Position numbers and translations under genes: made by a program. From a virus, in IMG/VR virus record IMGVR_UViG_3300006874_000039, positions 1 to 38,338 of that record: 38,338 nt of DNA; one strand, written 5' to 3'. How positions within the stretch are numbered: position 1 is the first letter of the stretch; every line of letters starts with the position of its first letter. Under the pieces are notes generated by a model that ran no database searches, was not told where the DNA came from, and saw only the letters and a program-made list of their open reading frames with translations. Below are positions 1,158 through 37,822 of the stretch, piece by piece.

Positions 1158-3281
1158 TTAGATTTCACAAGATCCACCTGCACAGGCAAGCTCTTGCTGT
1201 GGTGTGGTGTTATCTTGCAGTTCGATCAACTCCGTGTAGTCAACCGCAACTGCTCCTTCCTTTATAGAACAGTATCGATCGTATGTCCATAGGTCCTTTA
1301 GCAAATAAGTCACTTCTTTTTGTGAAATGTTGTACTTGTCTGAAAATGCCTGCAACTTCGCATCAAACTCCCTGTTTTTATTAAAGTCAAACAAGGCATC
1401 ATGGCACAATTGCCACAGTTCACCATCATTGTTGATGCCACTCAATAGCTCCCACCCATGAAGGACTGGGTCATTGCCGTAGTGTTTCATCATCTGCGAT
1501 GGCAAGTAGACCGCAGCAAACGGAGCTTGGGCATAGTCTTTATCGCCGGTGGCCGACAGCAGAGACACCCCGCAAAGGTGCTGCCGATTGTCGTAGATAA
1601 AGTCCTCCACAGTATCCCACTCTTCAGGCTCTACGTTGATTGTGTTGCTAACATTATGGGTAATTCCTTTTAGCTGGCAAAGATCCTCATTTGTACCTGG
1701 GACGACCCAGTGCTGTTGGGTGCTAACAACCGCCTTGAGCAAGCCCTCTGCCGATACCTTTCGCTTTGTGATTGCCCCTGATTTTGTTTCAATTGCGAAT
1801 GACACAACATCATCTGTTTGGTTTGCCGACCATACTGATGATTCACAGGAATCGCCATTAAACAACTTATAATGCCGATAAACTGGGTCGAGAGTGTTAG
1901 CCTGCACTCTGCGAATGTATCTTTTATAATGGTGTGGGTGGATCCCGCTAGATGTCCCTAATACACAACTGGCTGTTCCCTCTGGCTTTACACAGGTAGT
2001 CCTCGCAGCTGGTCTAATGCCGATCATATGAGCTATCAACCCATTAGCATACTTAACAACTTCCGCACCGTTCTCTTGTATCTTCTGATCCAGCAAGACT
2101 GAAGGATTCTCTTGCATACCCGTAATGGAAACGCCAAGTAAGCTTTCATATCCGAAGATGTTTTCACTTGCGGCTCCCAAGTATGGGAACTCGACAAACC
2201 CAGCCTGTAGCGTTCCGATGACCGCCGCCGAGAAAGCCGCCGAGTAAAAGTCGAATTCATCCTTAACCTTTGATCCATTGACTGTCGACAGGTTGCACCC
2301 CTGCCATCCCGTCTCGCCTGTGAGAGGACATTTTGGATACATGCCAATTTCAACGCATGGGTTTACGATCATGTCCAAATCATCCATCCAGACAAACCCA
2401 GGTTCGCCAAACTCCTTGACTGACCTCATTATCTCAGCGAACTGTTCTCGCGTCGTTTCATTTCTAAGTAGTGCGACGGAATTGTTGCTGCGTCCACGTT
2501 GCGGGTTTTCGACGAACCAGTTGCCTGTCTTTGCTTTAAGCATCTCAATATCATGCGGGGAGAAAACACAGATCGTCGCAGACCTGCGAACGCCACCACT
2601 AATAACTGCGTCAGCAAGGTGGCATACAATATCATAACAATCAATTGGGTGTAGTTTCTCATTCTTTACTGCGTTCTCCAGTACGAATTCAACTTTTTGT
2701 AATGCTTTCACTAATGGCTCTGGACCTGGGGCCTTCCCACCTGCCGACAATGGCGAACCTTTAGGTCGGATATCTGAGAAGTCGAACTCTGGCTTTTGGT
2801 TGTAGCCGAAGTAACTCTTGATTAAAAGGTCAGCAGCTGTTGACCATCCTTCGATGCTGTCAACAACCTTCATTGGTAATATCTTATCTGACGGGGTAAG
2901 CTTAGGAAGCTTTCTGACATGCTGCTCTTGAACGCTGTATCCGGTTCCACAGCCGCAAAGCAAAAGATAAAAGCATTCGCGAAAGAATTCAACACGGTCG
3001 CAATGTGAAGCCACACAGTTGAACATGCGAGCGTTATGCTTAAAGATAGGATCGCCAGCGAATTGCATTGAACGCATCGACGGCAGAACCTTCTTTGACA
3101 AAACATCGTCATATGCCCTGACAATAAAAGGTATAGACTCTGGGTAGTTTTTATATTTCTCCAGCATCATTGCTCGTGAACGCATGACACACTCTTCCCA
3201 AGTCTCGCGTCGTTGTTCATCAGGAAGGTATTTAGCGTATTTACTTTGGAAAGTGAAGTCGCTTAGGTTTTTGAGAGTCAT
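1158..3281 (-). CDS. nrdJ: Class II (adenosylcobalamin-dependent) ribonucleoside-triphosphate reductase
   Basis: Reduces ribonucleoside triphosphates to deoxyribonucleotides using a cobalamin-generated thiyl radical, supplying dNTPs for phage replication. The 707-aa length is close to the monomeric Lactobacillus leichmannii type (about 740). Visible landmarks are FNCVASHC (87-94) with one redox Cys, GGVRRSATI (229-237), NPQRGRSNNS (259-268), the active-site NPCVEI (307-312) carrying the radical Cys309 and Glu311, QGCNLS (327-332) with the partner redox Cys, and a C-terminal pair Cys700/Cys705 in CAGGSC for re-reduction by thioredoxin. No intein is seen. AGGA lies 7 bases before the start. Dependence on B12 implies a host that makes or imports cobalamin. 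The next gene starts within the stop codon. Confidence 0.95.
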   Translation of the reverse strand: MTLKNLSDFTFQSKYAKYLPDEQRRETWEECVMRSRAMMLEKYKNYPESIPFIVRAYDDVLSKKVLPSMRSMQFAGDPIFKHNARMFNCVASHCDRVEFFRECFYLLLCGCGTGYSVQEQHVRKLPKLTPSDKILPMKVVDSIEGWSTAADLLIKSYFGYNQKPEFDFSDIRPKGSPLSAGGKAPGPEPLVKALQKVEFVLENAVKNEKLHPIDCYDIVCHLADAVISGGVRRSATICVFSPHDIEMLKAKTGNWFVENPQRGRSNNSVALLRNETTREQFAEIMRSVKEFGEPGFVWMDDLDMIVNPCVEIGMYPKCPLTGETGWQGCNLSTVNGSKVKDEFDFYSAAFSAAVIGTLQAGFVEFPYLGAASENIFGYESLLGVSITGMQENPSVLLDQKIQENGAEVVKYANGLIAHMIGIRPAARTTCVKPEGTASCVLGTSSGIHPHHYKRYIRRVQANTLDPVYRHYKLFNGDSCESSVWSANQTDDVVSFAIETKSGAITKRKVSAEGLLKAVVSTQQHWVVPGTNEDLCQLKGITHNVSNTINVEPEEWDTVEDFIYDNRQHLCGVSLLSATGDKDYAQAPFAAVYLPSQMMKHYGNDPVLHGWELLSGINNDGELWQLCHDALFDFNKNREFDAKLQAFSDKYNISQKEVTYLLKDLWTYDRYCSIKEGAVAVDYTELIELQDNTTPQQELACAGGSCEI

Positions 3282-3576: not shown

Positions 3577-4135
3577 ACTTAAAACTCCTTAATCTGAAAT
3601 ACTTGCCATAGTTGTTCTTCCCGACAACTATTCCCATTTTGTTTCCCATATATGGAATGTGGTGGTGTTCCTCGTTCTCGTACATTTCCTGAAGTGTAAC
3701 AGGACCAACCAACGCCCACTTAAGCTCTCCACTCTTCCATGTATCACCGATCCTTTTCCAATGCTTTTTGATGTCAAGATCGGCAGGGACTTTAAGTGAC
3801 CTTTCGGACAGATTGAAGATTAGCAAGACCGTGGCATTCTTTTTAATGTAGTTACGCATATCGTTTGTTTTTAGCGTAAACTTCCCAGATGTTGGAACGA
3901 ACTTCATTTCCAGTGGAACCTCAAGCCCGTTTATCTTAGCAATGAAGTCCACATCCGAAGTGTCAACTCCGTCTGGGATGTAACCACCACCATTGTCTAC
4001 ACCGTTGTCAATATACCACTCACAACCAGAATTACTAGAGCTAGACCAAGCTTCCATTAGCTTGCCTTCTATGGCTGTAGTAAACTCTATGTGAGACTTA
4101 AACTGTTCAATCGTTCTGTTGTCCAGTCTTCCCAT
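3566..4135 (-). CDS. Probable PD-(D/E)XK-fold nuclease (189 aa)
   Basis: A D-x(14)-E-x-K arrangement (Asp61, Glu76, Lys78, within DVDF and LEMKF) follows a predicted strand-turn-strand, and the hydrophobic strand TVLLIFNL comes after it. This is the core pattern of the PD-(D/E)XK nuclease fold found in Holliday resolvases, VRR-NUC and restriction-like enzymes. An N-terminal helix (res. 9-30) may hold an extra Glu. The start at 4135 directly follows the stop of the RuvC-like gene and has GGAGGG 7 bases upstream. Its position next to a resolvase and the PrimPol supports a role in DNA processing. The fold call is from motif only; a non-catalytic or unrelated domain cannot be excluded. Confidence 0.55.
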   Translation of the reverse strand: MGRLDNRTIEQFKSHIEFTTAIEGKLMEAWSSSSNSGCEWYIDNGVDNGGGYIPDGVDTSDVDFIAKINGLEVPLEMKFVPTSGKFTLKTNDMRNYIKKNATVLLIFNLSERSLKVPADLDIKKHWKRIGDTWKSGELKWALVGPVTLQEMYENEEHHHIPYMGNKMGIVVGKNNYGKYFRLRSFKYAG

Positions 4136-4606
4136 CTACAGGCCCTCCTCCACTATCGATCCATAAGTTGCGATCAACAAAGCGTCCGCCGACCATAACG
4201 TAATCGGGAGTTTCCCACCCGTTTTGCCCAAAGATCCATACAGCTCTTCCGCTGCCTCCTTCAGCATGTTCTTGTCCCCTTTGCTCGTCGTCCCGATGAC
4301 TCTCTTTTGCCACGCTGCTGGCATCACCTCGTGATACTTCCATTCCAAAGCCTCGATTAACCCTAATATTCTCCCGACGCCACGACCAAAGTTAAAAGAT
4401 TGGGTTGCTCCCCAACCTCCTCGTCCTCGAACCGCTTCGATATAAACTATAACTTCATGCGATCTAATACCTGTTGTATATTCCCGGAACTGCTGCAATA
4501 TCAGATTGCCTGTTTGTGGTAACTTCTCCACAGCAATCCAGTCAGTATGAAAGTAAGCTACACCACCGTTCACACCTGGGTCGATACCTATGATCATCTT
4601 ATGCAT
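4136..4606 (-). CDS. RuvC-like Holliday junction resolvase
   Basis: Likely cuts four-way DNA junctions formed during recombination-dependent replication or before packaging. The 156-aa product has the RuvC/RNase H-fold pattern: GIDPG (7-11) with catalytic Asp9, the second-strand YIEAV with Glu57, and a C-terminal SADALLIA helix with Asp141. RuvC proteins are about 160-175 aa, so it is near full length. A glycine-rich run after Glu57 (GRGGWG) fits the substrate-facing loop. It overlaps the PrimPol gene's end by 8 bases and its stop abuts the next gene's start, showing tight coupling. The alternative start three codons later (MIIG) is possible. Catalytic residues are intact. Confidence 0.88.
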   Translation of the reverse strand: MHKMIIGIDPGVNGGVAYFHTDWIAVEKLPQTGNLILQQFREYTTGIRSHEVIVYIEAVRGRGGWGATQSFNFGRGVGRILGLIEALEWKYHEVMPAAWQKRVIGTTSKGDKNMLKEAAEELYGSLGKTGGKLPITLWSADALLIATYGSIVEEGL

Positions 4607-6668
4607 TTAAAAACAAAACCTTCTTTCTGTCGATAATCTTTTCTTCGAGCCTTCCGCTTTCGACAAGAGTACCGATCACACTTTGGTAAAGTTTGTTATC
4701 GCAGCCAATCTGCTTTAGTAAAGCAGTCTTTCCTATTGTTCCTTTAGCGTCTTTGATTATGCTAAACACCTCCATCTTCACCGCCTCAAATGAGCCACCA
4801 ATACCTAGTCGCTTGCGGCCCTCGGTTAGAACATATTCGCTAGTGTGGATGGCCCAGTCGATTCCCCATCGAGCATCAGCCTCAGTGACTTTCCAAGAAT
4901 CGGGGCTGCGGTCTAGGGCTCGCATTAAAGCGAGCTTCCTTGCCTTCTCTGGAGCCCGTCCCCAAATAGCTTGCTCCTCGTCAGTGGTGTATCCCTCTAC
5001 GACATCCCACAATTCATCATAAGCTCTTTCTGCTTCAGCCGAGACGGGAATGATCTCCGCATCTGGGTTGTCCTCTATCCCGATAGTTGATCCGAAGGTT
5101 GTGAATCGATTGATCCAGAAGTTTGTCCTGTCGACTAGTCGCTGGGGCGGATACATAAATTTGCGATTTTTTCTCTCTCCGCGTTTTCCAGTGTCAACGA
5201 CCATAATCCGTCCTGCAAATCCATCACGTAATTGCATTCTGGTGAGAGCCGACCAAAAATGGTCTGCTGTTGAATATCCGGAGAAGGAGAAGCAGGGCTG
5301 ATTGATAATAATATCCCGCTCCTTGTCCGCGTAGGCCTTAAGGCGATATCTTGAGTTAGCTGCACCCCAGAGGTCGAGGAGAGTGTCATTGATAGTCGCC
5401 ATGACTCCTCCTTTCGCCTTTTGCAGAAAAAGTCCGTATTCATCCCAGAGGCATAATAAGCTTGGCGTGTCCGAAAGTAACGAGCCAATTGCAGCATCAC
5501 TTGTAACCTTGCCAGCAACCTTGTTGGGATTCGAGCTGCGATCAAAAACAGCACGGATGCAGTCTTGAGGGGCTTGCTTGCCACCGCTAGAAGGTGCCAA
5601 GACCACTGTGTAAAGATTTGTTTTAGTTCCGCTTTCATCCATCACCCCTCGCCCTAAACAGGCACTATACCAACTAATAGCCCCAGTTACCGCAAGGGCT
5701 CGATTTGACCTTGAACTCTGCGATTCAATGTATTCTGCGAATTCGGCCATCCCACTGCCTTGGGGAAGCTTGAGCAGGTTATCTGGAATTTTACTAACCT
5801 GGGAAGTTGCAATTAAATTCGCATTGAGGGTACTCATTTCAATGTCATCGACCGACGCCTCTGGCATCTCCATTCGACCATAATCTTTATGCTTTTTAAT
5901 ATCTTCCTTTCGCAAGACTTCTCCGATTTTCCGTATCACATCATCGTCTCCCCATGGCGGATCACATTTTGGATTGAAGACATCCATGATAAGATCGTAA
6001 GCCACTTTAGGTGGAAGCTTAAAATCTATCAGCATTCGGCAACAAGCCTTGAAAAGGGCGTTGTGCCCATTATGGCCAGAGATGCTAGGATTCATAGTCT
6101 CCAAGTAGGCTCTAGCATCGCCCAGGATTGATTCTGAGACCTCTTCGTTGTCCCAATCGATTGGAGTGTCACACTTCTGCTTTAAGCCCTCAGAACAGTA
6201 TTCCTGCACGACCTCAGAGATGTCCCCTAATTGGGTGTAGTTTATCACATTTCCTGTGATCGTGAAAAATCGTCTAGCTGTGTAAACCTCAATTTTTTCT
6301 TTGGTTATTCCTTTTCGGTCAAACGGGCATGTTCCGATGAACTTAATGCCAGTCCCGCTAGGCGAAACTTCAGCATATGTTTCAAGTCGTTCAAGCATTT
6401 CTTCAGCGATAGGTGTGTACGATCCATCACCTAGAATGCAGTCGTCGAGGTCTATGCCAGCTAACCCATCGCCCTCGCGAAAGACAAAACCTATTCCATC
6501 ATATCCGCTCAGGTTCATGCACTCCACAGCCTCGTCATATGTTCCCCAGGTTGTTGGATCAGTGCTGCTTGCCGCCCCACCTTGAGGGTTAATTGGAAGC
6601 TTGCGGCCAGTGCGTCGATCCCAGCAGACCCATTGTTTGAGGTTTCGCAGGTCAGTAATGTCTTCCAT
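4599..6668 (-). CDS. Primase-polymerase / DUF3987 ATPase fusion (689 aa)
   Basis: The N-terminal part (about 1-160) matches archaeo-eukaryotic primase-type PrimPol domains: GIDLDD (71-76) supplies the metal-binding Asp pair, SPSGTGIK (102-109) is the second motif, and RFFTITG (133-139) the third region. A helical PriCT-like linker with NPKCDPPWGDDD follows (about 195-255). The C-terminal half is DUF3987-like: APSSGGKQ (358-365) in the Walker A position and LLCLWDE (404-410) in the Walker B position, probably a helicase-like ATPase, though the usual Ser/Thr after the Walker Lys is Gln here. This resembles the layout of single-protein phage replicases such as NrS-1 polymerase. It is the only polymerase candidate in the window. 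It overlaps both neighbours. Confidence 0.85.
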   Translation of the reverse strand: MEDITDLRNLKQWVCWDRRTGRKLPINPQGGAASSTDPTTWGTYDEAVECMNLSGYDGIGFVFREGDGLAGIDLDDCILGDGSYTPIAEEMLERLETYAEVSPSGTGIKFIGTCPFDRKGITKEKIEVYTARRFFTITGNVINYTQLGDISEVVQEYCSEGLKQKCDTPIDWDNEEVSESILGDARAYLETMNPSISGHNGHNALFKACCRMLIDFKLPPKVAYDLIMDVFNPKCDPPWGDDDVIRKIGEVLRKEDIKKHKDYGRMEMPEASVDDIEMSTLNANLIATSQVSKIPDNLLKLPQGSGMAEFAEYIESQSSRSNRALAVTGAISWYSACLGRGVMDESGTKTNLYTVVLAPSSGGKQAPQDCIRAVFDRSSNPNKVAGKVTSDAAIGSLLSDTPSLLCLWDEYGLFLQKAKGGVMATINDTLLDLWGAANSRYRLKAYADKERDIIINQPCFSFSGYSTADHFWSALTRMQLRDGFAGRIMVVDTGKRGERKNRKFMYPPQRLVDRTNFWINRFTTFGSTIGIEDNPDAEIIPVSAEAERAYDELWDVVEGYTTDEEQAIWGRAPEKARKLALMRALDRSPDSWKVTEADARWGIDWAIHTSEYVLTEGRKRLGIGGSFEAVKMEVFSIIKDAKGTIGKTALLKQIGCDNKLYQSVIGTLVESGRLEEKIIDRKKVLFLNA

Positions 6669-11725: not shown

Positions 11726-12088
11726 ATGAGAGAACTTTTCCGTTATCTGCCGGTTCTTATGGAGATCCTGCCGCACGTAACGCACATGACTGGTAAGGAC
11801 TGCCCAATGGAAGAAAAGGCAGAACATGTCATGCAAATCCTGGCCATTCTGGCCGATCAAACCGATACTGAGCTGGACGATCTGATTATTGATCGTGTTG
11901 CTGAGTTGGTCAAATCAGATCAGTTTTGGGACACTATTGAGAGGATTCTATCTGCATTCCGGGATGATCCAAAGGAATTTGGGGCTGTACTTCAAGAGGA
12001 AAGGAATCTCGATCCAGCTACCATCGCCCTAATTATTGAGGTGGTTGGGCTAGTCATTCGACTATGGAGAGATCGCCGTGATCGATAG
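11726..12088 (+). CDS. Hypothetical protein with C-terminal membrane segment (120 aa)
   Basis: First gene of the rightward operon, with AGGAAGG 8 bases before the start. Residues 1-95 are mostly helical and acidic; residues about 96-114 (PATIALIIEVVGLVIRLW) are hydrophobic and followed by the basic end RDRRDR. This is the pattern of a tail-anchored protein with its bulk in the cytoplasm. It overlaps the next membrane protein gene by 11 bases. Together with the following small membrane proteins and the peptidase it could belong to a lysis cassette, for example as a holin regulator, but no family is recognised. Confidence 0.65.
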   Translation: MRELFRYLPVLMEILPHVTHMTGKDCPMEEKAEHVMQILAILADQTDTELDDLIIDRVAELVKSDQFWDTIERILSAFRDDPKEFGAVLQEERNLDPATIALIIEVVGLVIRLWRDRRDR

Positions 12089-12314
12089 TCTTCTTGATTT
12101 TCTTAAAGATCCAGTCTCCTTGGGTCTAATCGGTGTTGCGGCTGCGGTCTTCTTGGGACCGTCAGCGTGGACACTCATCAAAGGTTTGTTGGGAAGGCTA
12201 AAGAAAACAAATAGCACCGGCAAAGTCATCACTGAGCTGCTTGCTCTGAGGGATTCAAATCCCGAAATCAAAGAGGAGCTGAATGCAGCTATCGTAAAAC
12301 TCCTGGGTGAATAA
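12078..12314 (+). CDS. Small membrane protein, holin candidate (78 aa)
   Basis: GTG start at 12078 with GGAGA 7 bases upstream. Residues about 14-38 (SLGLIGVAAAVFLGPSAWTLIKGLL) form one hydrophobic segment, possibly a hairpin because of the central GPS turn. A basic loop (GRLKKTN) and an amphipathic C-terminal helix follow. Size and layout are compatible with a small phage holin or antiholin, and it lies two genes before a papain-like peptidase. It overlaps both neighbours (11 bases upstream; TAATG downstream). No sequence family is recognised, so the holin call is a guess from architecture. Confidence 0.6.
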   Translation: MIDSLLDFLKDPVSLGLIGVAAAVFLGPSAWTLIKGLLGRLKKTNSTGKVITELLALRDSNPEIKEELNAAIVKLLGE

Positions 12315-12946
12315 TGCGACAACTTCAAATTCTAGTCGTTTTCGTCCTGGTGGCGATTGCGATTATGCGGCACGTAGATATTGGCGTTGAGAGCGGAGAA
12401 CAGGCAATCGCTGGTATTCTTTATGAACTATCAGAAACTGAACTTCCAACTTCATCGCATTACGACGTTGCTCGGAGGAATGCATTGCAAATCATCCGAA
12501 GAGAGCATCCAGAGCTTGAGTTCAGTCCACCTTCATGGTTTATCGAGCTAATGGGGACACTCAGCTCTGCCGATCCCGGAAAGGTGCGTGAAACCTTTCA
12601 GGACGCCTCTGAGAGGCTTGGGGGCGATGAGAGCGACAGAGATTACCAGATCGGTCGGGAGGCTGTTAGAAGGGCTCTGGAGCCACCTGAAGACGACACT
12701 CCAAACGGAGGGAAATGCGAAGATTGCGATGGGACGGGGAAGGTCGGAGACGGGCGGGTTTTTACAACCTGTCTCGCCTGTGACGGCACGGGAATTCTCA
12801 AACCCAAGAAAGGGGGTGATGAGGTATCTCGCCAGCCAAGCGTTAATGGCAATCGTAGTAGTTGTGATGTCAATTCTAGCAGACCACTGGGACGGTCGAA
12901 TAAAAGCCGCCCAGTGGTCCGTTTTTTACAGAGGGTTTTTAGATGA
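12314..12946 (+). CDS. Membrane-anchored protein with DnaJ-like zinc-finger repeats (210 aa)
   Basis: Residues 5-18 (QILVVFVLVAIAIM) are a signal anchor. The middle is soluble, and residues 135-160 carry two CxxCxGTG repeats (Cys135, 138, 153, 156), the pattern of the DnaJ cysteine-rich zinc domain, here as a half-domain with four Cys binding one metal. After about residue 167 the sequence becomes Ser/Arg-rich and looks like out-of-frame coding, because a 51-aa membrane gene starts at 12819 in the +1 frame. Either the two overlap, or a shift at the AAA-GGG-GGT run joins the zinc domain to the membrane segment. It starts inside the stop of the previous gene. Confidence 0.6.
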   Translation: MRQLQILVVFVLVAIAIMRHVDIGVESGEQAIAGILYELSETELPTSSHYDVARRNALQIIRREHPELEFSPPSWFIELMGTLSSADPGKVRETFQDASERLGGDESDRDYQIGREAVRRALEPPEDDTPNGGKCEDCDGTGKVGDGRVFTTCLACDGTGILKPKKGGDEVSRQPSVNGNRSSCDVNSSRPLGRSNKSRPVVRFLQRVFR

Positions 12947-12974
12947 GTCGATTCGGATGGAAACCCCACCCTGA
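12819..12974 (+). CDS. Nested small membrane protein (51 aa)
   Basis: An alternative-frame gene inside the end of the zinc-finger gene. It starts at ATG 12819 just after the run AAGGGGG, a ribosome site placed rather close. Residues 4-22 (LASQALMAIVVVVMSILAD) form one clean membrane span, and the rest is an amphipathic soluble tail rich in Trp, Arg and Phe. It reads into the first codons of the peptidase gene. The coherent span, absent in the host frame where the same DNA gives low-complexity sequence, argues it is real. It could be a holin-like or spanin-like partner, or the C-terminal part of a frameshifted product. Confidence 0.5.
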   Translation: MRYLASQALMAIVVVVMSILADHWDGRIKAAQWSVFYRGFLDESIRMETPP

Positions 12975-13893
12975 AGAAGTTGACTGGATCTTGGGAGATC
13001 CTGATGTTCCGGGCGTATATGGTTTAGGTCCGAACGATTCCAATAGGATTAGGAAATCTCATACTAATAGAGAGCCTTTGCTTCTTACAGATGCCCTATT
13101 GGCTCTTGAGCCTAATTTCAAGCGTGGGGCACAAAAGATTGGAAGTTGTGTCGCATGGGGATATGAGATTGGAGTTCGTATCGCTCATGCTGTTGATATA
13201 GTTCTTGATAAAGAGCCTTGGAAGTATGTTGGTGAATTTTCCATAGAAAGCATTTATGGTGGTTCAAGATGTGAAGCCAGGGGGCGAGACTATGCTGGAT
13301 TTAGGGATGGCAGCTTTGGAGCAGCCGCGAGCAAGTTTATAACAAAATGGGGAACGCTTCCTAGAGCGAATTACTCTATTGCCACTGGTAATGCAGAGCA
13401 TGATGTCAGGAAGCATTCTGAAGATAAAACAAAACAATGGGGAGCCTACGGAAATGGTGGGCGATCCGACAAGGGTAAGCTTGACGATGTTGTGAGAGCC
13501 TACCCAGTCAAAGAGGCGGTTATGATAACCGGCTTTGATGACGCAGCGAACGCCATCCTCAATGGGTGGCCTATCCCAGTTTGCTCTGGACAAGGTTTCA
13601 CAAAGACCAGAGATAAAGACGGATTCTGTAGCCCACGAGGCAGCTGGAGCCATTGCATGTGCTTTGTTGGGGTGAGATTCGACAGACCTGGGTTGTTATG
13701 CATGAATTCTTGGGGGTATTCAAACAAGGGGCCGCACGGGATTGAAACCAACGAGAATGTAATGAAAGCATCGTTTTGGGTTGACGCAAATGTTGCAACC
13801 AGAATGTTGCGGGGCCAAGACAGTTTTGCCATCACTGGCGTGAATGGCTTAGAACCTAGAGATGTAGATTTTACCACAGATTGGAATTTATAA
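12943..13893 (+). CDS. Papain-like (C1-fold) cysteine peptidase
   Basis: The catalytic triad pattern of clan CA papain-like peptidases is visible in the 316-aa product: IGSCVAWG (67-73) with Cys69 at the start of the central helix, SWSHCMCFVGV with His237, and CMNSWGYSNKG with Asn255 in the family-typical NSWG. No signal peptide or propeptide is visible, so it would stay in the cytoplasm until released by a holin, or act in the virion. It follows four small membrane proteins, so a lysis enzyme cutting cell-wall peptide bridges or surface protein is a reasonable guess; a maturation protease is the alternative. Start has GAGGG 7 bases upstream and overlaps the previous stop (ATGA). Confidence 0.78.
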   Translation: MSRFGWKPHPEEVDWILGDPDVPGVYGLGPNDSNRIRKSHTNREPLLLTDALLALEPNFKRGAQKIGSCVAWGYEIGVRIAHAVDIVLDKEPWKYVGEFSIESIYGGSRCEARGRDYAGFRDGSFGAAASKFITKWGTLPRANYSIATGNAEHDVRKHSEDKTKQWGAYGNGGRSDKGKLDDVVRAYPVKEAVMITGFDDAANAILNGWPIPVCSGQGFTKTRDKDGFCSPRGSWSHCMCFVGVRFDRPGLLCMNSWGYSNKGPHGIETNENVMKASFWVDANVATRMLRGQDSFAITGVNGLEPRDVDFTTDWNL

Positions 13894-14301: not shown

Positions 14302-14613
14302 ATGACAGAGATACTTGTTTCATTATTCGGAGCCATCGGGGCCGTAGTTGCAAGCTATTTTTCGTACGCTGCTAATAGGCAGAGTAGGCGTAGCAATGTG
14401 TCGATTGAGCAGATCAACGACGCTGTTAACCATAGGCACAAGACTGGAACTCCCCGATTATACGACATGGTTTTGTCTAACTTTAATAGGGTTGGGCAAT
14501 TGGAAAAATCAGTAAAAGAAATTAAACGTGATATCAAAGACCTGTCACATGTTGTGTCAGTTCACGAAATTGAATTAGATAGCATAGAAGATAAAATAGA
14601 AGGGACCAACTAA
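14302..14613 (+). CDS. Membrane-anchored coiled-coil protein, DUF2746/holin-like
   Basis: Residues 3-22 form an N-terminal membrane segment (EILVSLFGAIGAVVASYFSY), followed by a basic patch (NRQSRRS), a conserved-looking centre AVNHRHKTGTPRLYDMV (about 41-57) and a coiled-coil tail with heptads (LEKSVKEIKRDIKDL). The central NHR-H-TGTPRLYD pattern resembles DUF2746-type phage membrane proteins sometimes considered holins. AGGGA lies about 6 bases upstream of the start, and the stop overlaps the next start as TAATG. With the peptidase nearby, this is the best alternative holin candidate. Role remains inferred. Confidence 0.6.
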   Translation: MTEILVSLFGAIGAVVASYFSYAANRQSRRSNVSIEQINDAVNHRHKTGTPRLYDMVLSNFNRVGQLEKSVKEIKRDIKDLSHVVSVHEIELDSIEDKIEGTN

Positions 14614-14922: not shown

Positions 14923-15981
14923 ATGGCGACTTATTACACATCCTCCACGGCACTTGGCGGCGGCGTTGGGTCGTATGTCGATCCGTTTACGTTGCAGGAG
15001 GGTTTGAACAATGTAGCCAGTGGCGATGAGCTTCGCGTTCTAAATGACGGGACATATAGTCCTTCGTCCACTTTGACCTATTCGCTAGAACCTACGGATT
15101 TCGTGACAATCAGTGGTCGCAACTCGGCAGATACAGCCTACGAACATGCGACCATTGACGGTACGTTTTTGTCTGGATCTGACATGCTCCAGATGAGCGG
15201 CACTACCTACAATGGGAATAGGACTTATTGGAAAAATTTAATTTTCACAAATTCCACAGTTATTGTCAGGGGGTCATTTTACGGTCGTCAAAACTGGATG
15301 ATAAATTGCCAGTTCATAAACTCGCAGTATGCGTGGCATAGCAACGGATACCAAAACACATTTGTAAATTGTGAATTTGCAAACCTATCGGCAAACGCAC
15401 TCCATGTTGCAAATGAATCTGTTGTGATTGGCTGTTCGTTTCATGACATAAGTGCAAATGCCATGCGGTTATGCAACGGTGCAAAAGTTTACAATTCCGT
15501 TTTTTACGACGTTTCTGGAGATGCAATATATGGCAGTATTTATACTATTTCAGGATGCACGTTTTTTAGAAATTCAATAGATGCCTGCCATGGTGCGTTT
15601 ATTGTTGTAGATAATATCTTCTCTGACAGTGGTGGATATGGCATTGATGGTAGTTATATTAGCTACCTTTACTCCAACAATCTTTTCTATAACAACACGC
15701 TTGGCGATGCTAACTTAACAGCGGGCGGGCAAGGAACGGGGCTTAATTCCATAACAGGCCAAGACCCTCTATTTACTAACACAACTGCTGGCTCAGTGGA
15801 TCTTAGCTTGCAGACTGGTTCCCCGGCAATCGGTGCGGGGTTCGTCGGGACAATTCCGGGCAATAACTCAAGTATCGACATGGTGGGTTATTCAGATATT
15901 GGAGCGTTGCAGTCTCAGGCGTCCACCGGCGGCACTTCCTACACTCCCGCAGCTTCTGCCAAGTTCACCCGTTTGGAATAA
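14923..15981 (+). CDS. Parallel beta-helix protein, tailspike-like (352 aa)
   Basis: Likely a receptor-binding or surface-polysaccharide-cleaving tail protein. The body (about 20-300) consists of imperfect 20-25-residue turns with Asn-rich T2-type corners (NLIFTNSTVIV, NCQFINS, NCEFANLS, GCSFHDIS, NSVFYDVS, GCTFFRNS, DNIFSDS), the hallmark of right-handed parallel beta-helices such as pectate lyase-like tailspikes. The N-terminus YYTSSTALGGGVGSYVDPFTLQEGL is typical of the first turn of such proteins. The C-terminus ends KFTRLE, shared in outline with the next two proteins. No catalytic residues can be assigned. Related in fold to the next gene, so probably an old duplication. Confidence 0.8.
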   Translation: MATYYTSSTALGGGVGSYVDPFTLQEGLNNVASGDELRVLNDGTYSPSSTLTYSLEPTDFVTISGRNSADTAYEHATIDGTFLSGSDMLQMSGTTYNGNRTYWKNLIFTNSTVIVRGSFYGRQNWMINCQFINSQYAWHSNGYQNTFVNCEFANLSANALHVANESVVIGCSFHDISANAMRLCNGAKVYNSVFYDVSGDAIYGSIYTISGCTFFRNSIDACHGAFIVVDNIFSDSGGYGIDGSYISYLYSNNLFYNNTLGDANLTAGGQGTGLNSITGQDPLFTNTTAGSVDLSLQTGSPAIGAGFVGTIPGNNSSIDMVGYSDIGALQSQASTGGTSYTPAASAKFTRLE

Positions 15982-15984
15982 GAT

Positions 15985-17289
15985 ATGACAACTCCTAATG
16001 GTGCAATTGTATTTCACGCCACATCTGGATCAGACACTCAAGCAAGTGGGCTTGGGCCTTCAACGGCAGTATATGGCAGTGGTGCGTCTACTGATGGAAC
16101 GGCGGTTGTCACGGGCATTACCACCACTGGAGTATCTGCTGGGGATTTGCTCTGGGTGCAGACTGCAAGCGGTCGGCAGTTTTCAATTATTGCCAGTGTT
16201 GATAGCAGCACGCAGGTGACTTGTGACGATACGTTTGCTCTAGGTGCTAGTCAGACTTGGGCGATTGGTGGGAAGAGAGCGACCCTAGATAACTCGGACA
16301 GTCGACTTTTGTTTACCGCTGATGCCAAGCCGGGCTGGACGATTGAAACAGAGACAGACCAGAGCTTAACTAGTGCAATTGCTTGGACCGCTGACGGTGA
16401 CAGTACAGGCTGCATAACACTTAAAGGCAGTGATGCAACGACATTAAAAAAGATAAACCAGACAGCAAATGCAAACGGAATTACACTGACAATTGCCAAT
16501 TACGTTGCAATTAAAGATTTGCACATTGTCAGGTCGTCCGGAAGTAACGGTTATACGGCTATCGCGGCTAGAGGCATCCCGATGGTGTTTGAAAACGTCA
16601 AGATAGACAACTCCGGCGGTAATAGTTGGAACCACGGGATTACTCGCAACGGCGGGAATCCTGTGATAACGATGCTGAGGGTAGTTGTCACTAACTGCGT
16701 TTTGGATGGGATCAGCGATGCAGGCGGCGGGGTTGGTGGCGTTGTGTCTGATAGCATTTTCGCAAATAACGGAGGTGACGGTGTAGCGGCAGGCATTTAT
16801 GCACTGACTCTAAGTCGCTGCCTGATTTACGGCAACGGGGCCTATGGAGTTGTATCCAGTCAATATCAGATTAATGTTTCAAATTGCGTCATTCACGGCA
16901 ATACGTCAGATGGTATTAACCTTTCAGGAGTAGCTAATTCTGTGGTGGGGTGCGTTCTGTCTGGTAATGGAGGTTACGGTATTAACGTGGACAGTTCATG
17001 GGCCTTGGGCAGCGTTGAGGACTTTAATGCCTTCTACAACAACACAACCGGAGAAGTCAACAACATCACGAAGGGACCTAGTGACGTCACGTTAACCGCC
17101 GATCCGTTTACCGATACTGCAACGGATGACTACACAATTAACACAACAGCCGGTGGTGGTTCCACTTTACGTTCTACAGCAATCACCCTCGGCTCTACTG
17201 AGACTCGTCCATTCCGCTGGCTTGACGCTGCTGCCGCAGGTGTTGCCGCAGTCTTCTCTTACATGGCTAACTTCACAAGGCTGGGCTAA
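15985..17289 (+). CDS. Second parallel beta-helix tail protein (434 aa)
   Basis: Residues about 1-120 form a strand-rich cap (AIVFHATSGSD, GDLLWVQTASG), and about 145-360 show beta-helix turns with repeated N/C corners (VAIKDLHIVRS, FENVKIDNS, VTNCVLDGIS, VSDSIFANNGGDGV, LSRCLIYGNGAYGV, VSNCVIHGNTSDGINL, VVGCVLSGNGGYGINV). The repeating GNxxxGI/V is typical of pectate-lyase-like sheets. The C-terminal 60 residues (ADPFTDTATDDYTIN and RPFRWLDAAAAG) end in NFTRLG. It follows the first beta-helix gene by 3 bases. Probable adhesin or depolymerase; no active-site residues assigned. Its stop overlaps the next start as TAATG. Confidence 0.8.
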   Translation: MTTPNGAIVFHATSGSDTQASGLGPSTAVYGSGASTDGTAVVTGITTTGVSAGDLLWVQTASGRQFSIIASVDSSTQVTCDDTFALGASQTWAIGGKRATLDNSDSRLLFTADAKPGWTIETETDQSLTSAIAWTADGDSTGCITLKGSDATTLKKINQTANANGITLTIANYVAIKDLHIVRSSGSNGYTAIAARGIPMVFENVKIDNSGGNSWNHGITRNGGNPVITMLRVVVTNCVLDGISDAGGGVGGVVSDSIFANNGGDGVAAGIYALTLSRCLIYGNGAYGVVSSQYQINVSNCVIHGNTSDGINLSGVANSVVGCVLSGNGGYGINVDSSWALGSVEDFNAFYNNTTGEVNNITKGPSDVTLTADPFTDTATDDYTINTTAGGGSTLRSTAITLGSTETRPFRWLDAAAAGVAAVFSYMANFTRLG

Positions 17290-19565
17290 TGTCGTTCACC
17301 AATCCATATCCCGCCAGTCGGCTCACGGTCGATGCTACAAACAGCCTGTCGTCCGGGCTCGTGGGCTTCTGGCCCCTGACCGATGGTACGGGTACGACGG
17401 CGAAGGATATTAGTACGGGTGCGAATGATGGGACTGCGAGTGGTACGGTCAATTGGCTTAGTGGCGATATCGGGATGGCTGCTGACTTTGCTAGCGTAAC
17501 TGGCTATTTCGACACTGGTGCTGGAACTAGTACGCTTGGCATCTCGGGTGGGTCCACCGCATCAATCTCTGCGTGGGTTAATTACACAACTGGCGGAAGT
17601 ATTACGCAGAATGTGTTTGGCGACTTAGGTAGCGGTGGTGTGGCTCCAAATTTTGGCATGTATATTGGGCCTTGGCCTTCTTTCGTAGATGTTTGGCGTA
17701 ACGAAGCTAATGCAAGATTTACATCTGTAACATTTAGTGGATGGATGCACTTCGTTGCTGTATATGACACATCAAACATATACCTATACATCAACGGATC
17801 ACTTCATGGCACGATTGCAAGTTCAGGTAGTATTAACGCTTCTACCGGGAACTGCATGATTGGCAACCAACCTGCCAATAACAGGAACCTTGAAGGGCAA
17901 GAGCAAAACGTCCGCATCTACAACCGTGCCTTATCCGCCACAGAAGTAGCCACCCTCTATAACCGCCCGTGGGAAGGCACCAACTACGGCACGCTTTGGC
18001 CTTACAGTCCTCCAGCCCCGGCAGATGCTACGCTCAGTACTGATACTGCGGCGACGAGTTTGAACGTCGATTTAGAAGGATGGTGGTTATGCACTGACAA
18101 TACTGGCACGACGCTGGTTGATATATCAGGCAATGGGCGAGATGCGACGTTGACTGGTACTAATAGCTGGGTGGCTGATTCTGTAGGGACTGTTAATAGG
18201 TTTGATAACAGTTCAGGCGGGGGGAGTAGTGCAAGTACAACAGACTATCAAATAAGTCTATCAACCTACACCATTGCACTCTGGGTTAATCATGAGGAAG
18301 CTGGGCTTGCATCTGGGAATAAATACGGCGGTGGACTTTCTTTAACTAATGGTAATTCAGCGTCATTGCAGTCAGATGTTGAGTTCTATTTCAATCCAAG
18401 TAGCACTAGTGGTGGTCAATGGCCACAGGTGGTTCATAACAGGTCAAATGGAGGCACGATTGGTTTATGGAGTAGGGCAGAGTCGGCTAAGACATCAGAG
18501 AATGGCGTCTGGAGATTTTATGTTTTAACCTACGACGGCACAAATGCGAGGTTTTACAAAGACGCAGTTTTGGCGGGAACGTCATCATCCTTGGCGGCAC
18601 CGATATCTACAACCGGCAAGCACTTAAATATAGCCACTAATCGCGACCCTGATGGCATCACCTGCTCAATGCAGAACATTAGGCTCTATTCGAGGGCCTT
18701 GTCAGCAGATGAAATCACCATCCTCTACGAACGACCGTGGGAGGGTATCGAATATGGCGATGCTTTCCACTACGATCCGCCCACACCTGCCAATCTCACT
18801 CCGCTCACATCAGATTCCATAAACAATTCACAAATTGGCTGGTGGCCCCTCACCGAAACGGATGATTACGCGAGCGGGGCGGCTGATATTAGTGGGAATG
18901 GGAATAACGGTACTCAGTCTGGCGGCGTGTTGAGCGAGGTGAGTCGGCTGGGTGGTGTTGCTAGTTTTGATGGCGTAAATGACATCATTGATGCAAGTGC
19001 TTACACGATAGCGTCTACATCATCTATGACTATGGCTGGATGGATCAGATACACCTCAACCGTAGGTTCTGTTTGCGTTTTGAATATCTGCAACGCTGGT
19101 GGTGGCACTACTGCTCAATACACCAGAAATATAGCCATCAACTCAAGCGGAAATGCGTCGTGTAATGTCCAGAGTGGAACAGCTATCGCACAGGCGGTTG
19201 GCTCAACCGTGTTTGATATTGGAGAGTGGTACTTCGTAGTAGGTACGTTTGACAAGGTGGGTACTAGCTATGATGTCGAGATATTCGTCAACGGAGTGAG
19301 CGAGGCAACTGCTTCTGGCACTGGTTCTGAACTAACACCGTATACGAACACATGTATCGGAGGTGCTAGAAGATATAATAATGCGATTACGGCTGTAGAA
19401 CCTTGCGAGATTCATAATGTCAGACTTTGGGATAGAGCCTTAACCGCAGATGAAGTATGGGATATCTACGCGAATCCGTGGCTAGGCAGTGCATATACGG
19501 CAACCCCATCCGCCGTTTTATACAATTACATATTACGTTCTAAACGATTTAGGAGGCTAAGTTAA
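17289..19565 (+). CDS. Triple LamG/concanavalin A-like adhesin (758 aa)
   Basis: Three LamG-type (laminin G-3/ConA-like) domains occupy about residues 15-235, 250-490 and 505-745. Each opens with a Trp-rich strand (GFWPLTD, GWWLCTD, GWWPLTE), continues with DISGNGxxGT-like turns (domains 2 and 3), and closes with a conserved segment RxYxRALSAxE, then a PWEG or PWLG exit. Such jelly-roll domains bind carbohydrate or protein ligands, so the protein is likely a host-surface or mucus-binding tail fibre. The domains are diverged, implying old internal duplication. It ends RFRRLS, similar to the two beta-helix proteins. It is the longest protein of the phage. Confidence 0.85.
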   Translation: MSFTNPYPASRLTVDATNSLSSGLVGFWPLTDGTGTTAKDISTGANDGTASGTVNWLSGDIGMAADFASVTGYFDTGAGTSTLGISGGSTASISAWVNYTTGGSITQNVFGDLGSGGVAPNFGMYIGPWPSFVDVWRNEANARFTSVTFSGWMHFVAVYDTSNIYLYINGSLHGTIASSGSINASTGNCMIGNQPANNRNLEGQEQNVRIYNRALSATEVATLYNRPWEGTNYGTLWPYSPPAPADATLSTDTAATSLNVDLEGWWLCTDNTGTTLVDISGNGRDATLTGTNSWVADSVGTVNRFDNSSGGGSSASTTDYQISLSTYTIALWVNHEEAGLASGNKYGGGLSLTNGNSASLQSDVEFYFNPSSTSGGQWPQVVHNRSNGGTIGLWSRAESAKTSENGVWRFYVLTYDGTNARFYKDAVLAGTSSSLAAPISTTGKHLNIATNRDPDGITCSMQNIRLYSRALSADEITILYERPWEGIEYGDAFHYDPPTPANLTPLTSDSINNSQIGWWPLTETDDYASGAADISGNGNNGTQSGGVLSEVSRLGGVASFDGVNDIIDASAYTIASTSSMTMAGWIRYTSTVGSVCVLNICNAGGGTTAQYTRNIAINSSGNASCNVQSGTAIAQAVGSTVFDIGEWYFVVGTFDKVGTSYDVEIFVNGVSEATASGTGSELTPYTNTCIGGARRYNNAITAVEPCEIHNVRLWDRALTADEVWDIYANPWLGSAYTATPSAVLYNYILRSKRFRRLS

Positions 19566-25580: not shown

Positions 25581-27070
25581 TGTCCGCAATCAGTACCGGC
25601 TACAATGCCAACTACCCAAAGACAAAACGCAGAAACCCAGGAACGACCGTCAGGTCTGTCGACGCTTCGGTCAGCGACCAGGACAAAAGGCAGCTGATTG
25701 AATCGGCCAGGGATCTGTATAGAAACTTCCCAGTTGCTGCATGGGCAATCAGGAAGCATCTAGACTATGTGTCGACGTTCAACTTTATGATCCAGACCGG
25801 AAATAAAGATTTTGACGATACATTCAGAAAGCTGTTGGAAGAAAATTCAAAGCCCGAGAATTGCGACATCACGGGACGACACAGCCTGAGCCAGCTGATT
25901 AGGCTTGCTGAAGGATTACGCACTACAGATGGTGACGTATTTTTAATGAAGCTCCGGAGCGGTCACCTCCAAGGCATCGAAGCCGATAGAGTGCGTAATG
26001 AGTATGACGGTAAGTTGCTTTATTCTGATGATTACCGTCGCAAGCCATGGCTAAGACCATATAGCGGTCAGGTTGTGTCCCCGTGGGCCACACACGGAGT
26101 TATCCAGAACAAAGCTGGGAAGGCCATAGGCTATAGGTTGTGGCACAAAACAATTGATGACAGATATCAATTCGATCGAGTGATTCCTGCGAGAAACATG
26201 ATTCACTTCGGCTATTTCGATAAGATGTCTCAAACTCGAGGCTACTCCCCGCTGATTGCTGCAATCGACACAATGCATGATGTCGATGAAATGTCAGAAT
26301 TCGCAAGACTAAAGGCAAAGGTCAGCCAGTATTTTGCACTATCGATTTCAAGAGACAAGACTGACTACTTAACTGGGTCAGATGCTTATGATGATGAGTG
26401 TGACAAAGAAGGTCAGTTTGACTCTATCGATTTTGGCACAGGTCCGTTGGTGCTAGACCTTGAGGATGGAGATAAAGCTGACTTCTTGGAATCAAAAACT
26501 CCAAGCACTGAATTTCAAGACTATATCACTCTAGCCTTGCAGATGGGACTTAAAGCTCTTGACATCCCATGGTCAATTGCAGATGAGTCGTTCACTAACT
26601 ACAGTGGCTCTCGAATTGCGATGACTCAGTATATCAAGTCTTGTGAATCAAAAAGAGCTGACGTTGTCCGAGTCCTTAATTCAATTACCGAGTTTTGGTT
26701 TTTAAGGTGGATCAAGGAAGGGAAAATTAAGCTTCCCGCCGGAGTAGAGTTTGGAGACATCCGTTGGAAGTGGATTCCAGCCGGAGTGCCTTGGTTTGAT
26801 CCGAGAGCCGAGGCCCAAGCTGATATCGATCTGATTGCAGCGGGGCTTAAAACTAGATCAGAAGTTAGACTTACCCACTTCGGTGATGATTGGAAAACAC
26901 AAGTTGCTGACAAGCTTAAGGAAGAAGAAGACTATCTTGCAGAGCTTGGTTTAAAACAAACCTCTCCAGTTAGCGGCAGCTCTGGGGTAAAGAACAGGGA
27001 AATTGAAGAGGAAGTTGATGACGATGACAGAGACGATGAAGACCAAGATCGACGAGCTGACGAAGTTTAA
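25580..27070 (+). CDS. Portal protein, lambda gpB-type
   Basis: Forms the dodecameric ring at one capsid vertex for DNA entry and exit. The 496-aa sequence matches the lambda portal family in length and landmarks: SARDLYRNFPVAAWAIRKHLDYV near the start, the segment LIRLAEGLRTTDGDVFL, the IPARNMIHFGYFD region before the wing, GYSPLIAAIDTMHDVDEM (stem helix), and YSGSRIAMTQYIKSCE. The C-terminus ends in an acidic tail that overlaps the next gene. GAGGG precedes the start. It follows terminase and the gpW-like gene and precedes the protease, the usual head gene order. Confidence 0.92.
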   Translation: MSAISTGYNANYPKTKRRNPGTTVRSVDASVSDQDKRQLIESARDLYRNFPVAAWAIRKHLDYVSTFNFMIQTGNKDFDDTFRKLLEENSKPENCDITGRHSLSQLIRLAEGLRTTDGDVFLMKLRSGHLQGIEADRVRNEYDGKLLYSDDYRRKPWLRPYSGQVVSPWATHGVIQNKAGKAIGYRLWHKTIDDRYQFDRVIPARNMIHFGYFDKMSQTRGYSPLIAAIDTMHDVDEMSEFARLKAKVSQYFALSISRDKTDYLTGSDAYDDECDKEGQFDSIDFGTGPLVLDLEDGDKADFLESKTPSTEFQDYITLALQMGLKALDIPWSIADESFTNYSGSRIAMTQYIKSCESKRADVVRVLNSITEFWFLRWIKEGKIKLPAGVEFGDIRWKWIPAGVPWFDPRAEAQADIDLIAAGLKTRSEVRLTHFGDDWKTQVADKLKEEEDYLAELGLKQTSPVSGSSGVKNREIEEEVDDDDRDDEDQDRRADEV

Positions 27071-28088
27071 TGCCATTGGGTTGGACAATGAAAGCAAGAT
27101 CGATTTTGACAAGGGTGTGATTTATGGTGCCAAAGTTATTGAGCTTGGTCGCGTCAATGATCATCGCCCTTTTGTTGTGGATGAAGAAACATTATCGGCA
27201 GTGGTGGCCTTCGGGAACCGTCCGAATAATGGAATCAAGGTAAGGTTTACCCACACTCAAGAGTCCCTGGGAAATCACCTTGGTCGTGCGGTTAATTTCT
27301 ACCGTCGCGGACAGGAGAACTGTGTTCGTTGTGACATCAATTTAGTTAAAGCTGCGAAGTTGGCTCCCTTCAATGCTTATGACTATATCATGTCACTCGC
27401 CATGGAAGACCCTGAAGCGTTGGGGTTATCAATCGCATTTATGATGGACCCTGAAGTAGAGGCAGTGGATGGTCTACTGCCGGTCAGGATCAAGCGTCTT
27501 TACTCCGTAGATTTTGTGGGCGAACCTAATGCAACTCGCGGTGGTTTGTTTTCCGCAGAAAACGAGGAAAGTATGACTATTGAAGAGAAGCTCGAAGGCC
27601 TTCTTGATGAAGAGAAAAAAGATCAAGTTGTCTTTGAGGAAGATGAGAAGAAGGATGAGTATGAGGAGGATGTAAAGGACGAAGAAGCCTCCGAGGACGA
27701 AGACGAAGATAAGATGGAAGAAGATGAGGAAGACGGGGAGAAGGTTGAACAAAGCCAAAAGCCACTTCCTGAGTACGAAGCTTACATTGAAGCCTTCGGT
27801 GAGCAGGGTGCTGTCTGGTACTTGCGTGGAAAGCCTCTGAATGAGTGCTTTGCAGAATATCTTCATTCAGTCAACAAAGAGAATGAAGCATTGCGTGCAG
27901 AGCTAGCTGAAGCTAAGGCCCAGGTTGAAGCATTCTCAGCTGGGTTGGGAGAAGAATCTCCAGCTGCTGCGAACGCTGATGTACAGCTGTCCGAAGCTGA
28001 AATGCGTCACCAAGAGTTTATTGCTCAAAAGAAAGAGCAAGGCTGGAGCGATAAAGAAATTCGCTGGGCAAGCCTCTTCTCTAAATAA
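27018..28088 (+). CDS. Prohead protease with C-terminal scaffold domain (356 aa)
   Basis: The N-terminal part (about 20-180) resembles phage capsid maturation proteases: a conserved VRFTHTQESLGNHLGRA stretch, the putative catalytic His in FTH, and GLSIAFMM with the Ser, followed by VDFVGEPNATRGGLF. Residues about 185-250 are extremely acidic (Glu/Asp/Lys), typical of a scaffold, and a coiled coil and C-terminal helix follow (VNKENEALRAELAEAKAQVEAF). Fusion of protease and scaffold in one chain is known in several phages; the protease would digest the scaffold after assembly. The start could be 27018 or 27024; a TTG at 27003 is less likely. The 5' end overlaps the portal gene. Confidence 0.8.
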   Translation: MTMTETMKTKIDELTKFNAIGLDNESKIDFDKGVIYGAKVIELGRVNDHRPFVVDEETLSAVVAFGNRPNNGIKVRFTHTQESLGNHLGRAVNFYRRGQENCVRCDINLVKAAKLAPFNAYDYIMSLAMEDPEALGLSIAFMMDPEVEAVDGLLPVRIKRLYSVDFVGEPNATRGGLFSAENEESMTIEEKLEGLLDEEKKDQVVFEEDEKKDEYEEDVKDEEASEDEDEDKMEEDEEDGEKVEQSQKPLPEYEAYIEAFGEQGAVWYLRGKPLNECFAEYLHSVNKENEALRAELAEAKAQVEAFSAGLGEESPAAANADVQLSEAEMRHQEFIAQKKEQGWSDKEIRWASLFSK

Positions 28089-36512: not shown

Positions 36513-36896
36513 ATGATGAATATTAGACTAGGTGAAAAGGTTACGGTTCACGAGTATAAAGGGCAATTAAGGGTGTTTACAATCAATAGAAAGGGAGTTT
36601 TGGAGTATCATGGTGTGATGACATCTGTTTGCCTATCAAACGCAATTAGGAAGAATTCGCACACCATTGAGGGTGTTCTTGAAGGTTACGGTTTAGGGGA
36701 TTCTCACTCCGTCGCCATTCCTGCCGTATACGTTAAAGAATTCTTTCCTATGATAGGTAAAGATGACGGTTTTGGTTTGATTGGGGATTTTGTCGACGGT
36801 TCAAAAATTGGGGTTTCCGAGTATCATATTCTTTATGACAATAAAGAGTATGACGGTTTAGACTGTTTTTTAGGGGTTTCCGTTGATGATAATTGA
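36513..36896 (+). CDS. Hypothetical protein (127 aa)
   Basis: The start at 36513 (AGGGG 4-5 bases upstream) is chosen over an in-frame ATG at 36369, which would lie inside the previous gene. The product opens with a short strand-rich region (NIRLGEKVTVHEYKGQLRVFTINRKG), has a middle VCLSNAIRKNSHTIEGVLEGYGL, and an acidic, aromatic end (DDGFGLIGDFVDGS, YDNKEYDGLDCFLGVSVDDN). No family is recognised. Its stop lies about 90 bases before the GP88-like gene, most likely on the same transcript. Confidence 0.6.
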   Translation: MMNIRLGEKVTVHEYKGQLRVFTINRKGVLEYHGVMTSVCLSNAIRKNSHTIEGVLEGYGLGDSHSVAIPAVYVKEFFPMIGKDDGFGLIGDFVDGSKIGVSEYHILYDNKEYDGLDCFLGVSVDDN

Positions 36897-36988
36897 AGGG
36901 ATTCTTTACTCGGTTTTGCTTGTTTGTTTGTTTGTCCGTGGGTTTTGGTGTTTGGTCAATGAAGAGAAGGGATATGGGGACTACTAAA

Positions 36989-37822
36989 ATGAGTTACAAG
37001 CTTTTAGATCGTGTAGATAATGTTAATGAGATGACATTGAGAGATGCAAGGGAAGCTTGTGGGGATTATGGTTTTGCCGATTTAATAACGTCCCCGGACG
37101 CAAATTCCAAACTTGCTAAATCGGAAGGTTATCGAAATATCGGTGTTAGTCTAACTCCGTCGACGGTAGGTGTTTTGGATAATTGTCCCAATTCAACCCC
37201 TAAATGCCGTGCGGCGTGTTTGGCGTTTACTGGCCGTATTGAGATGGAGTCCGGAAAGGGTGGTGTTATCACGCGTAGTAGGCTAGGACGTACTAAACTA
37301 CTTGCCGATAACCCACGATTGTTTGCCGATGTTCTTTACACTCAATTACTGAGGGAAGAACGTAAGGCTAAACGAGACGGGGTAAATGTGGCATTTCGTC
37401 CGGACGTTTTGAGTGATAGGTTTTGGCATTTAGAGAATCCGTGGATTTTTGAAGCTTTCCCTAGTTGGGAAATCTACGGTTACACAAAATCCGCTTTAAA
37501 GGTTCAGCAGTTTACCGACGGGGAATTGCCTAAGAACTACCACATAACCTTTAGTTGGTCTGAATTGGCTAATCCGTTGTATTGCCGGACGATTTTGGAA
37601 TCCGGGGTAAATGTTGCGGTTCCATTTTATGACCGTCAAACCCTTAAAGGGTGTTTGTCTGATTCTTTTTTGGGGTTTCCGGTTATCGACGGGGATAAAT
37701 CAGACTTGCGGTTTTTAGACCCTAGTGGGGTTATCGTGGGATTACGGGCCAAACTACCTAAGCTTAGGGCTAGGGCGAACAAGAGGGTTTTGGGGTCTTC
37801 CGGTTTTTTTGTGGGGGTTTGA
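36989..37822 (+). CDS. GP88-family protein (277 aa)
   Basis: Matches the phage GP88 family (named from mycobacteriophage gp88), whose function is unknown. Characteristic features are the N-terminal NIGVSLTPSTVGVLDNCPNSTPKCRAACLAFTGR block, with three Cys spaced Cx6Cx3C, and RSRLGRTKLLADNPRLFADVL, followed by VAFRPDVLSDRFWHLENPWIFEAFPSWEIYGYTK, a row of strands with short helices that looks like a TIM-barrel-type order. The Cys trio may bind a metal or Fe-S cluster; that is speculation. The start is uncertain: ATG 36989 has GGGG 9 bases upstream, and 36974 or 36959 would give 282 or 287 aa. Confidence 0.75.
   Translation: MSYKLLDRVDNVNEMTLRDAREACGDYGFADLITSPDANSKLAKSEGYRNIGVSLTPSTVGVLDNCPNSTPKCRAACLAFTGRIEMESGKGGVITRSRLGRTKLLADNPRLFADVLYTQLLREERKAKRDGVNVAFRPDVLSDRFWHLENPWIFEAFPSWEIYGYTKSALKVQQFTDGELPKNYHITFSWSELANPLYCRTILESGVNVAVPFYDRQTLKGCLSDSFLGFPVIDGDKSDLRFLDPSGVIVGLRAKLPKLRARANKRVLGSSGFFVGV

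Follow-up and report, generated by a model that had tools for sequence, protein, structure and literature searches.

On balance, the locus at 11726-13893 of the tailed phage IMGVR_UViG_3300006874_000039 is probably a phage lysis cassette built around a C1 papain-type protease and not a peptidoglycan hydrolase, and we infer both the lysis function and the substrate. Because the papain-type enzyme is encoded beside membrane proteins, no peptidoglycan-cutting enzyme is recognizable, and the host appears to be of the planctomycete type, the cell is probably opened by digestion of envelope proteins. The usual view is that peptidoglycan cleavage releases tailed phages from their hosts, and a widespread phage papain-type protease in the place of the endolysin would offer a testable answer to the question of how planctomycete phages exit. 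The whole 38.3 kb record, referred to here as the window, was analyzed; it contains genes for terminase, portal, major head protein, and tape measure.

The three upstream ORFs and the peptidase ORF overlap head to tail, all on the plus strand (Table 1). Codon usage of the three upstream ORFs is similar to that of the long genes of the phage (+0.15 to +0.18 bits per codon, versus +0.23 for the peptidase). Four small membrane proteins had originally been predicted in front of the peptidase; three of them (11726, 12078, and 12314) are retained, each with a hydrophobic segment and coding codon usage, whereas the ORF nested out of frame at 12819 stays a candidate only. Its frame scored +0.04 bits per codon versus −0.08 for the C-terminal tail of the 12314 frame, and it is preceded by the Shine-Dalgarno-like sequence AAAGGGGGTG, a plausible ribosome-binding site. 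A simple hydrophobicity score was passed by nine of the 44 window genes, and for a given trio of neighboring genes to pass together the probability is approximately 0.006, a value that refers to genes picked after the fact. Searches among the window genes revealed no convincing match to a holin or spanin family, and six small membrane proteins encoded by relatives gave none either. For the 14302 protein, PHROGs without an assigned function matched with E values as low as 3.9e-5, and the holin phrog_1296 matched only at E 0.075. We consider the 12078 protein a holin candidate and the 14302 protein a candidate for a second holin or a spanin-like protein.

Table 1. Coordinates of the proposed lysis cassette and of a further membrane protein gene in the window.
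Coordinates	Strand	Feature	Basis
11726..12088	+	120-aa helical protein with C-terminal hydrophobic segment (95-114); first cassette gene	ORF, coding codon usage
12078..12314	+	78-aa protein, GTG start, TM 8-26, amphipathic tail	ORF, coding codon usage
12314..12946	+	210-aa protein with N-terminal anchor (TM 1-27) and DnaJ-like double CxxCxGTG motif (residues ~134-161)	
12819..12974	+	Candidate 51-aa ORF, out of frame inside the 12314 gene, hydrophobic N-terminus	
12943..13893	+	316-aa predicted C1-type papain-like cysteine peptidase, proposed lysis enzyme; Q64, C69, H237, N255	
14302..14613	+	103-aa protein, TM 1-23, coiled-coil-like tail	PHROG search

The catalytic residues of the window peptidase follow the papain order, with C69 in a GSC and N255 in an NSWG motif. 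As a single query, the protein gave no match in Pfam (E up to 1), PHROGs, the PDB (phmmer), or INPHARED (tblastn; 50,697 phage records); tblastn with four of its relatives against INPHARED gave none either, and a search with the back-translated peptidase retrieved one identical contig only. The family was found by means of a degenerate DNA pattern for WxHCM...NSWG. At least 120 IMG/VR stretches matched this pattern; among the matches listed, all except L010 and L084 encode a profile-matching ORF, and at least 118 IMG/VR contigs carry a family member (DNA pattern, then family profile). Complete pattern matches also carry an upstream G[SDT]C, which is absent from the search pattern. Across 50 aligned members, C69, H237, and N255 were invariant and Q64 was conserved in at least 90%; HCM and NSWG are invariant by construction, as both lie inside the DNA search pattern, and thus only Q64 and C69 count as independent evidence. 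The phage contigs bearing the family range from about 30 to 238 kb. Among large phages of the L007 type, the cassette is present in three contigs of 226-238 kb, i.e., above 200 kb (L047, L057, and L082). In a few records, the peptidase domain is present two or three times, in partial or full form.

The window protein alone gave no match to PF00112 at E up to 1, whereas 13 of 50 relatives matched with E values of 0.05 or lower, the best being 5.7e-9. The family profile identified the bacterial protease xylellain (E 2.5e-5), followed by weaker matches to silicatein, papains, and cathepsins. An AlphaFold2 model of the window peptidase (mean pLDDT 87) had its best structural match to xylellain (3OIS) with a Z score of 21.0 over 238 residues, followed by Z scores of about 18 to pro-papain and cathepsin B, and 17.5 to Cwp84 (4CI7). 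CHAP or NlpC chains were absent from the fold matches listed, which proves nothing alone, and PF05257 and PF00877 (CHAP and NlpC/P60) matched in none of 44 records, the window included. Based on the family profile, the PF00112 matches in relatives, and the modeled fold, the window enzyme is predicted to be a distant C1A-type peptidase. The papain-like peptidase with an intact Cys-His-Asn pattern that had been recognized in the sequence is thereby confirmed at the level of residues and model, and the comparison with C1 families proposed along with it yielded a papain fold with no CHAP or NlpC sequence match. Most family members are single-domain proteins that are not fused to tail proteins.

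Neither Pfam searches with 29 ORFs nor six-frame searches revealed a lysozyme, amidase, SLT, NlpC/P60, CHAP, or M15 domain in the window, in accordance with the earlier observation that it holds no lysozyme, amidase, or transglycosylase. When the search was extended in six frames to 44 viral contigs, all of them peptidase-bearing, the window included, and some possibly incomplete, each of the seven lysin families covered (Amidase_2, Phage_lysozyme, SLT, NLPC_P60, CHAP, M15_4, and M15_3) was present in 0/44. Control genomes gave matches in the same search.

The genes around the peptidase are conserved across the family. Directly upstream, a single homologous family occupies 104 of the 119 loci with enough upstream DNA among the matches listed, and independent seeds converged on 101-104 loci. 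This partner family has an N-terminal membrane segment and, in some members, a lipobox; the model of a representative (L098; pLDDT 90) consists of a membrane helix and a compact four-helix bundle, for which fold comparison gave no meaningful match. A small protein, often a lipoprotein, with a cysteine motif of the type CxxCxGTGxxGDGR[IV]xxxCxxC is encoded no more than 4 kb from the peptidase gene, and on its strand, in 46 loci among the matches listed, and the stretches retrieved contain it at no other place; one such protein matched weakly to the DnaJ CXXCXGXG domain. An additional exported thioredoxin-like protein is encoded near the peptidase in some loci. The Cys motif was ruled out as a marker of the upstream partner, because a different protein, in most cases encoded downstream, carries it. 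The window has the motif inside its 12314 gene (CEDCDGTGKVGDGRVFTTCLACDGTG), where it aligns with the lipoprotein of the L052 cassette (pairwise E 4e-9). Membership of the upstream window genes in the four-helix partner family is unsupported, and none was detectable for the 12314 protein. The nearest relative among the matches listed, the viral locus L104, has a four-gene order identical to that of the window. Compared with their positional counterparts there, the 11726 protein showed weak full-length similarity (BLASTP E 1e-4, single comparison) and the 12078 protein borderline similarity (E 0.03). The window's own upstream proteins are orphans or weakly similar to proteins of relatives, which weighs against the lysis reading, as does the lack of a convincing holin or spanin match.

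Cellular relatives point to the host. A pattern scan of 84,980 genomes yielded 34 bacterial loci with a family member, several of which share one metagenome-assembled genome (MAG), and 28 of the 34 belong to Planctomycetota. Among them are the isolates Blastopirellula marina, Gemmata sp. IIL30, Zavarzinella formosa, Limnoglobus roseus, and Planctomycetales bacterium 10988; the remaining loci come from Mucilaginibacter (two), Flexithrix (one), an alphaproteobacterial MAG (two contigs), and one unnamed bacterium. In even genome draws, 4/246 Planctomycetota versus 0/200 Pseudomonadota had a complete or nearly complete copy (E below 1e-50). Maximum-likelihood analysis paired the window with L104 (100/95), and both fall in a supported 19-row clade that includes B. 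marina as well as a MAG of the Planctomycetaceae. The B. marina peptidase gene is followed by a thioredoxin-like and a terminase gene, which places this copy in a provirus or a provirus remnant. Some cellular copies, namely those in Limnoglobus and Mucilaginibacter, have no evident phage context, another point against the lysis reading. In L. roseus (L164, about 4036-6088), the trio of partner, peptidase, and thioredoxin-like genes lies among apparently cellular chromosomal genes and is possibly a domesticated copy of the cassette. The two Mucilaginibacter loci (L127 and L138) each have a lone peptidase gene beside glycosyltransferase-like genes, without the partner family.

From these relatives, the host of the window phage is probably a planctomycete. 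One paper and works cited in it (PMC8567305) describe planctomycete walls as mainly protein, with cysteine-rich YTV proteins in wall preparations, and report that peptidoglycan synthesis genes are missing in most Planctomycetales species. The original suggestion of a host with a proteinaceous or unusual wall thus gains support by way of the relatives. The cassette is supported as widespread among uncultured viruses of probable planctomycete hosts and was not described in the open literature searched, where we also found neither planctomycete phages with papain-like lysins (open-access papers) nor a phage-lysis role for C1A enzymes.

An N-terminal hydrophobic segment was present in 24 of 61 representative peptidases and a Tat-type signal in two, i.e., about 40% carry a Sec/Tat-like export signal, and thus much of the family is, as judged from sequence, probably exported. 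Such a signal is absent from the window peptidase, and holin-like release would therefore be needed; a small membrane protein, 12078 or 14302, might accordingly act as the holin. The protease would then reach the periplasm and cut wall or envelope proteins, and the cell would burst. As may lipoproteins and thioredoxins in other cassettes, the 12314 protein with its membrane anchor and Cys motif could keep the catalytic cysteine reduced; alternatively, it may help to open disulfide links or join the membranes in a spanin-like manner. The position of Cys-motif and thioredoxin proteins beside the protease suggests redox help, directed at either the catalytic cysteine or disulfide links. As a tentative extension, planctomycete phages might share a protein-wall lysis system composed of the C1 protease and redox helpers (Cys-motif lipoprotein, thioredoxin), in which a disulfide-bonded wall would be cut and un-crosslinked in place of peptidoglycan hydrolysis, while the anchored four-helix partner would control or position the protease. 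For the papain-fold endolysin distinct from CHAP and NlpC enzymes that had been proposed, the fold, the neighbors, the export signals of relatives, and the absence of the classical lysins searched for are all in favor; the endolysin role is the part that we infer.

The window enzyme resembles the C1A peptidases (papain, cathepsins, xylellain 3OIS) in its predicted fold over about 240 residues, the oxyanion glutamine and Cys-His-Asn residues, and the NSWG motif; it differs by an identity of only about 15%, by being phage-encoded, and by the conserved anchored partner and Cys-motif protein in its family. PeiW and PeiP (C71) are archaeal-virus cysteine peptidases that lyse hosts without ordinary peptidoglycan; their oxidation sensitivity has been reported, PeiP being active in vitro only under reducing conditions (PMC2989375). 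They share with the window enzyme the viral origin, the cysteine peptidase type, and, on the proposed reading, action on a wall without ordinary peptidoglycan, but have a Cys-His-Asp triad and pseudomurein-binding repeats (PMC2989375), in contrast to its Cys-His-Asn set, and neither a C71 domain nor such repeats were matched in Pfam at E up to 1. CHAP and NlpC/P60 endolysins are likewise papain-like Cys-His enzymes used in phage lysis (PMC10318531), but neither matched by sequence in the window and 43 other cassette-bearing contigs, and the closest solved structures are C1A. Cwp84 of Clostridioides difficile has a C1-type fold and acts at a bacterial protein surface layer, but is cellular, has a lectin-like domain of its own, and has no phage lysis role. 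As in holin-endolysin-spanin cassettes, genes for small membrane proteins are packed closely around that of a single enzyme, one product is anchored in the inner membrane, and relatives also encode a lipoprotein; here, however, a protease takes the place of the murein hydrolase, Cys-motif or thioredoxin proteins are added, and no holin or spanin family was convincingly recognized.

Other functions of the protease were weighed against lysis. A virion-associated enzyme that digests the protein envelope of the host locally at DNA injection would follow the same substrate logic, and the window cassette lies directly upstream of fibre-like genes (a beta-helix-like gene at 14923 and the LamG protein gene at 17289-19565). 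We regard such an entry role as rather unlikely, since the export signals of relatives and the conserved membrane-anchored neighbors fit action inside the infected cell and most family members are single-domain proteins unfused to tail proteins. An exported, partner-held protease might instead remodel the host surface during infection or lysogeny, e.g., for phage exclusion, or trim the envelope for non-lytic release. The trio among cellular genes in Limnoglobus, the lone copy in Mucilaginibacter, and the report of a chronic, non-lytic planctomycete phage (PMC10945688) are in line with this function, but it appears unlikely, as lysins of the seven other families were found in 0/44 contigs and the gene occurs in diverse phages of about 30 to 238 kb, as an essential function predicts.

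Several papain-like folds are peptidoglycan hydrolases (PMC10318531) and a few family members occur in Bacteroidota, so that the enzyme could also be an endolysin cutting peptide stems or cross-links of peptidoglycan in the manner of CHAP and NlpC/P60 enzymes. This activity is considered improbable: the closest structures are protein-cutting C1A proteases, the surface-layer-associated Cwp84 among them, and the peptidoglycan synthesis genes are, according to PMC8567305, missing in most Planctomycetales. The least probable function, with very little in its favor, is processing of capsid proteins inside the cell. One cassette (L012) does immediately precede the gene for a major head protein, but the export signals of relatives and the matches to head maturation protease PHROGs among the neighbors (3 of 99 large neighbors on cassette-bearing contigs, as tallies without positions) argue against head maturation; moreover, the window gene is 10-15 kb away from those for terminase, portal, and major head protein, and directly upstream of the latter lies another gene of the window that is a candidate for the head protease/scaffold (27003-28088, by position and motif). 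If the preferred reading of a lysis protease holds, the enzyme could be used for opening planctomycete cells and for probing load-bearing parts of their envelope, and its gene as a marker for assigning uncultured viruses to the phylum.

Further genes of the window were annotated. The product of 27003-28088 looks like a fusion of a prohead protease and an acidic scaffold; no family, PDB, or PHROG match confirmed this, the only one being an 'ATPase' PHROG at E 5e-4. Head maturation proteases guessed from motifs in L019 and L023 were unconfirmed. The protein encoded at 17289-19565 has three concanavalin A-like/LamG domains and is probably a fibre or receptor-binding protein. On the minus strand, 1158-3281 encodes a divergent ribonucleotide-reductase-like protein with partial Pfam matches to the B12-dependent (class II) enzymes, and 303-818 a dUTPase with a TTG start. 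A TTG start was also assigned to the gene at 36893-37822, whose product belongs to the Pfam GP88 (gene product 88) family.
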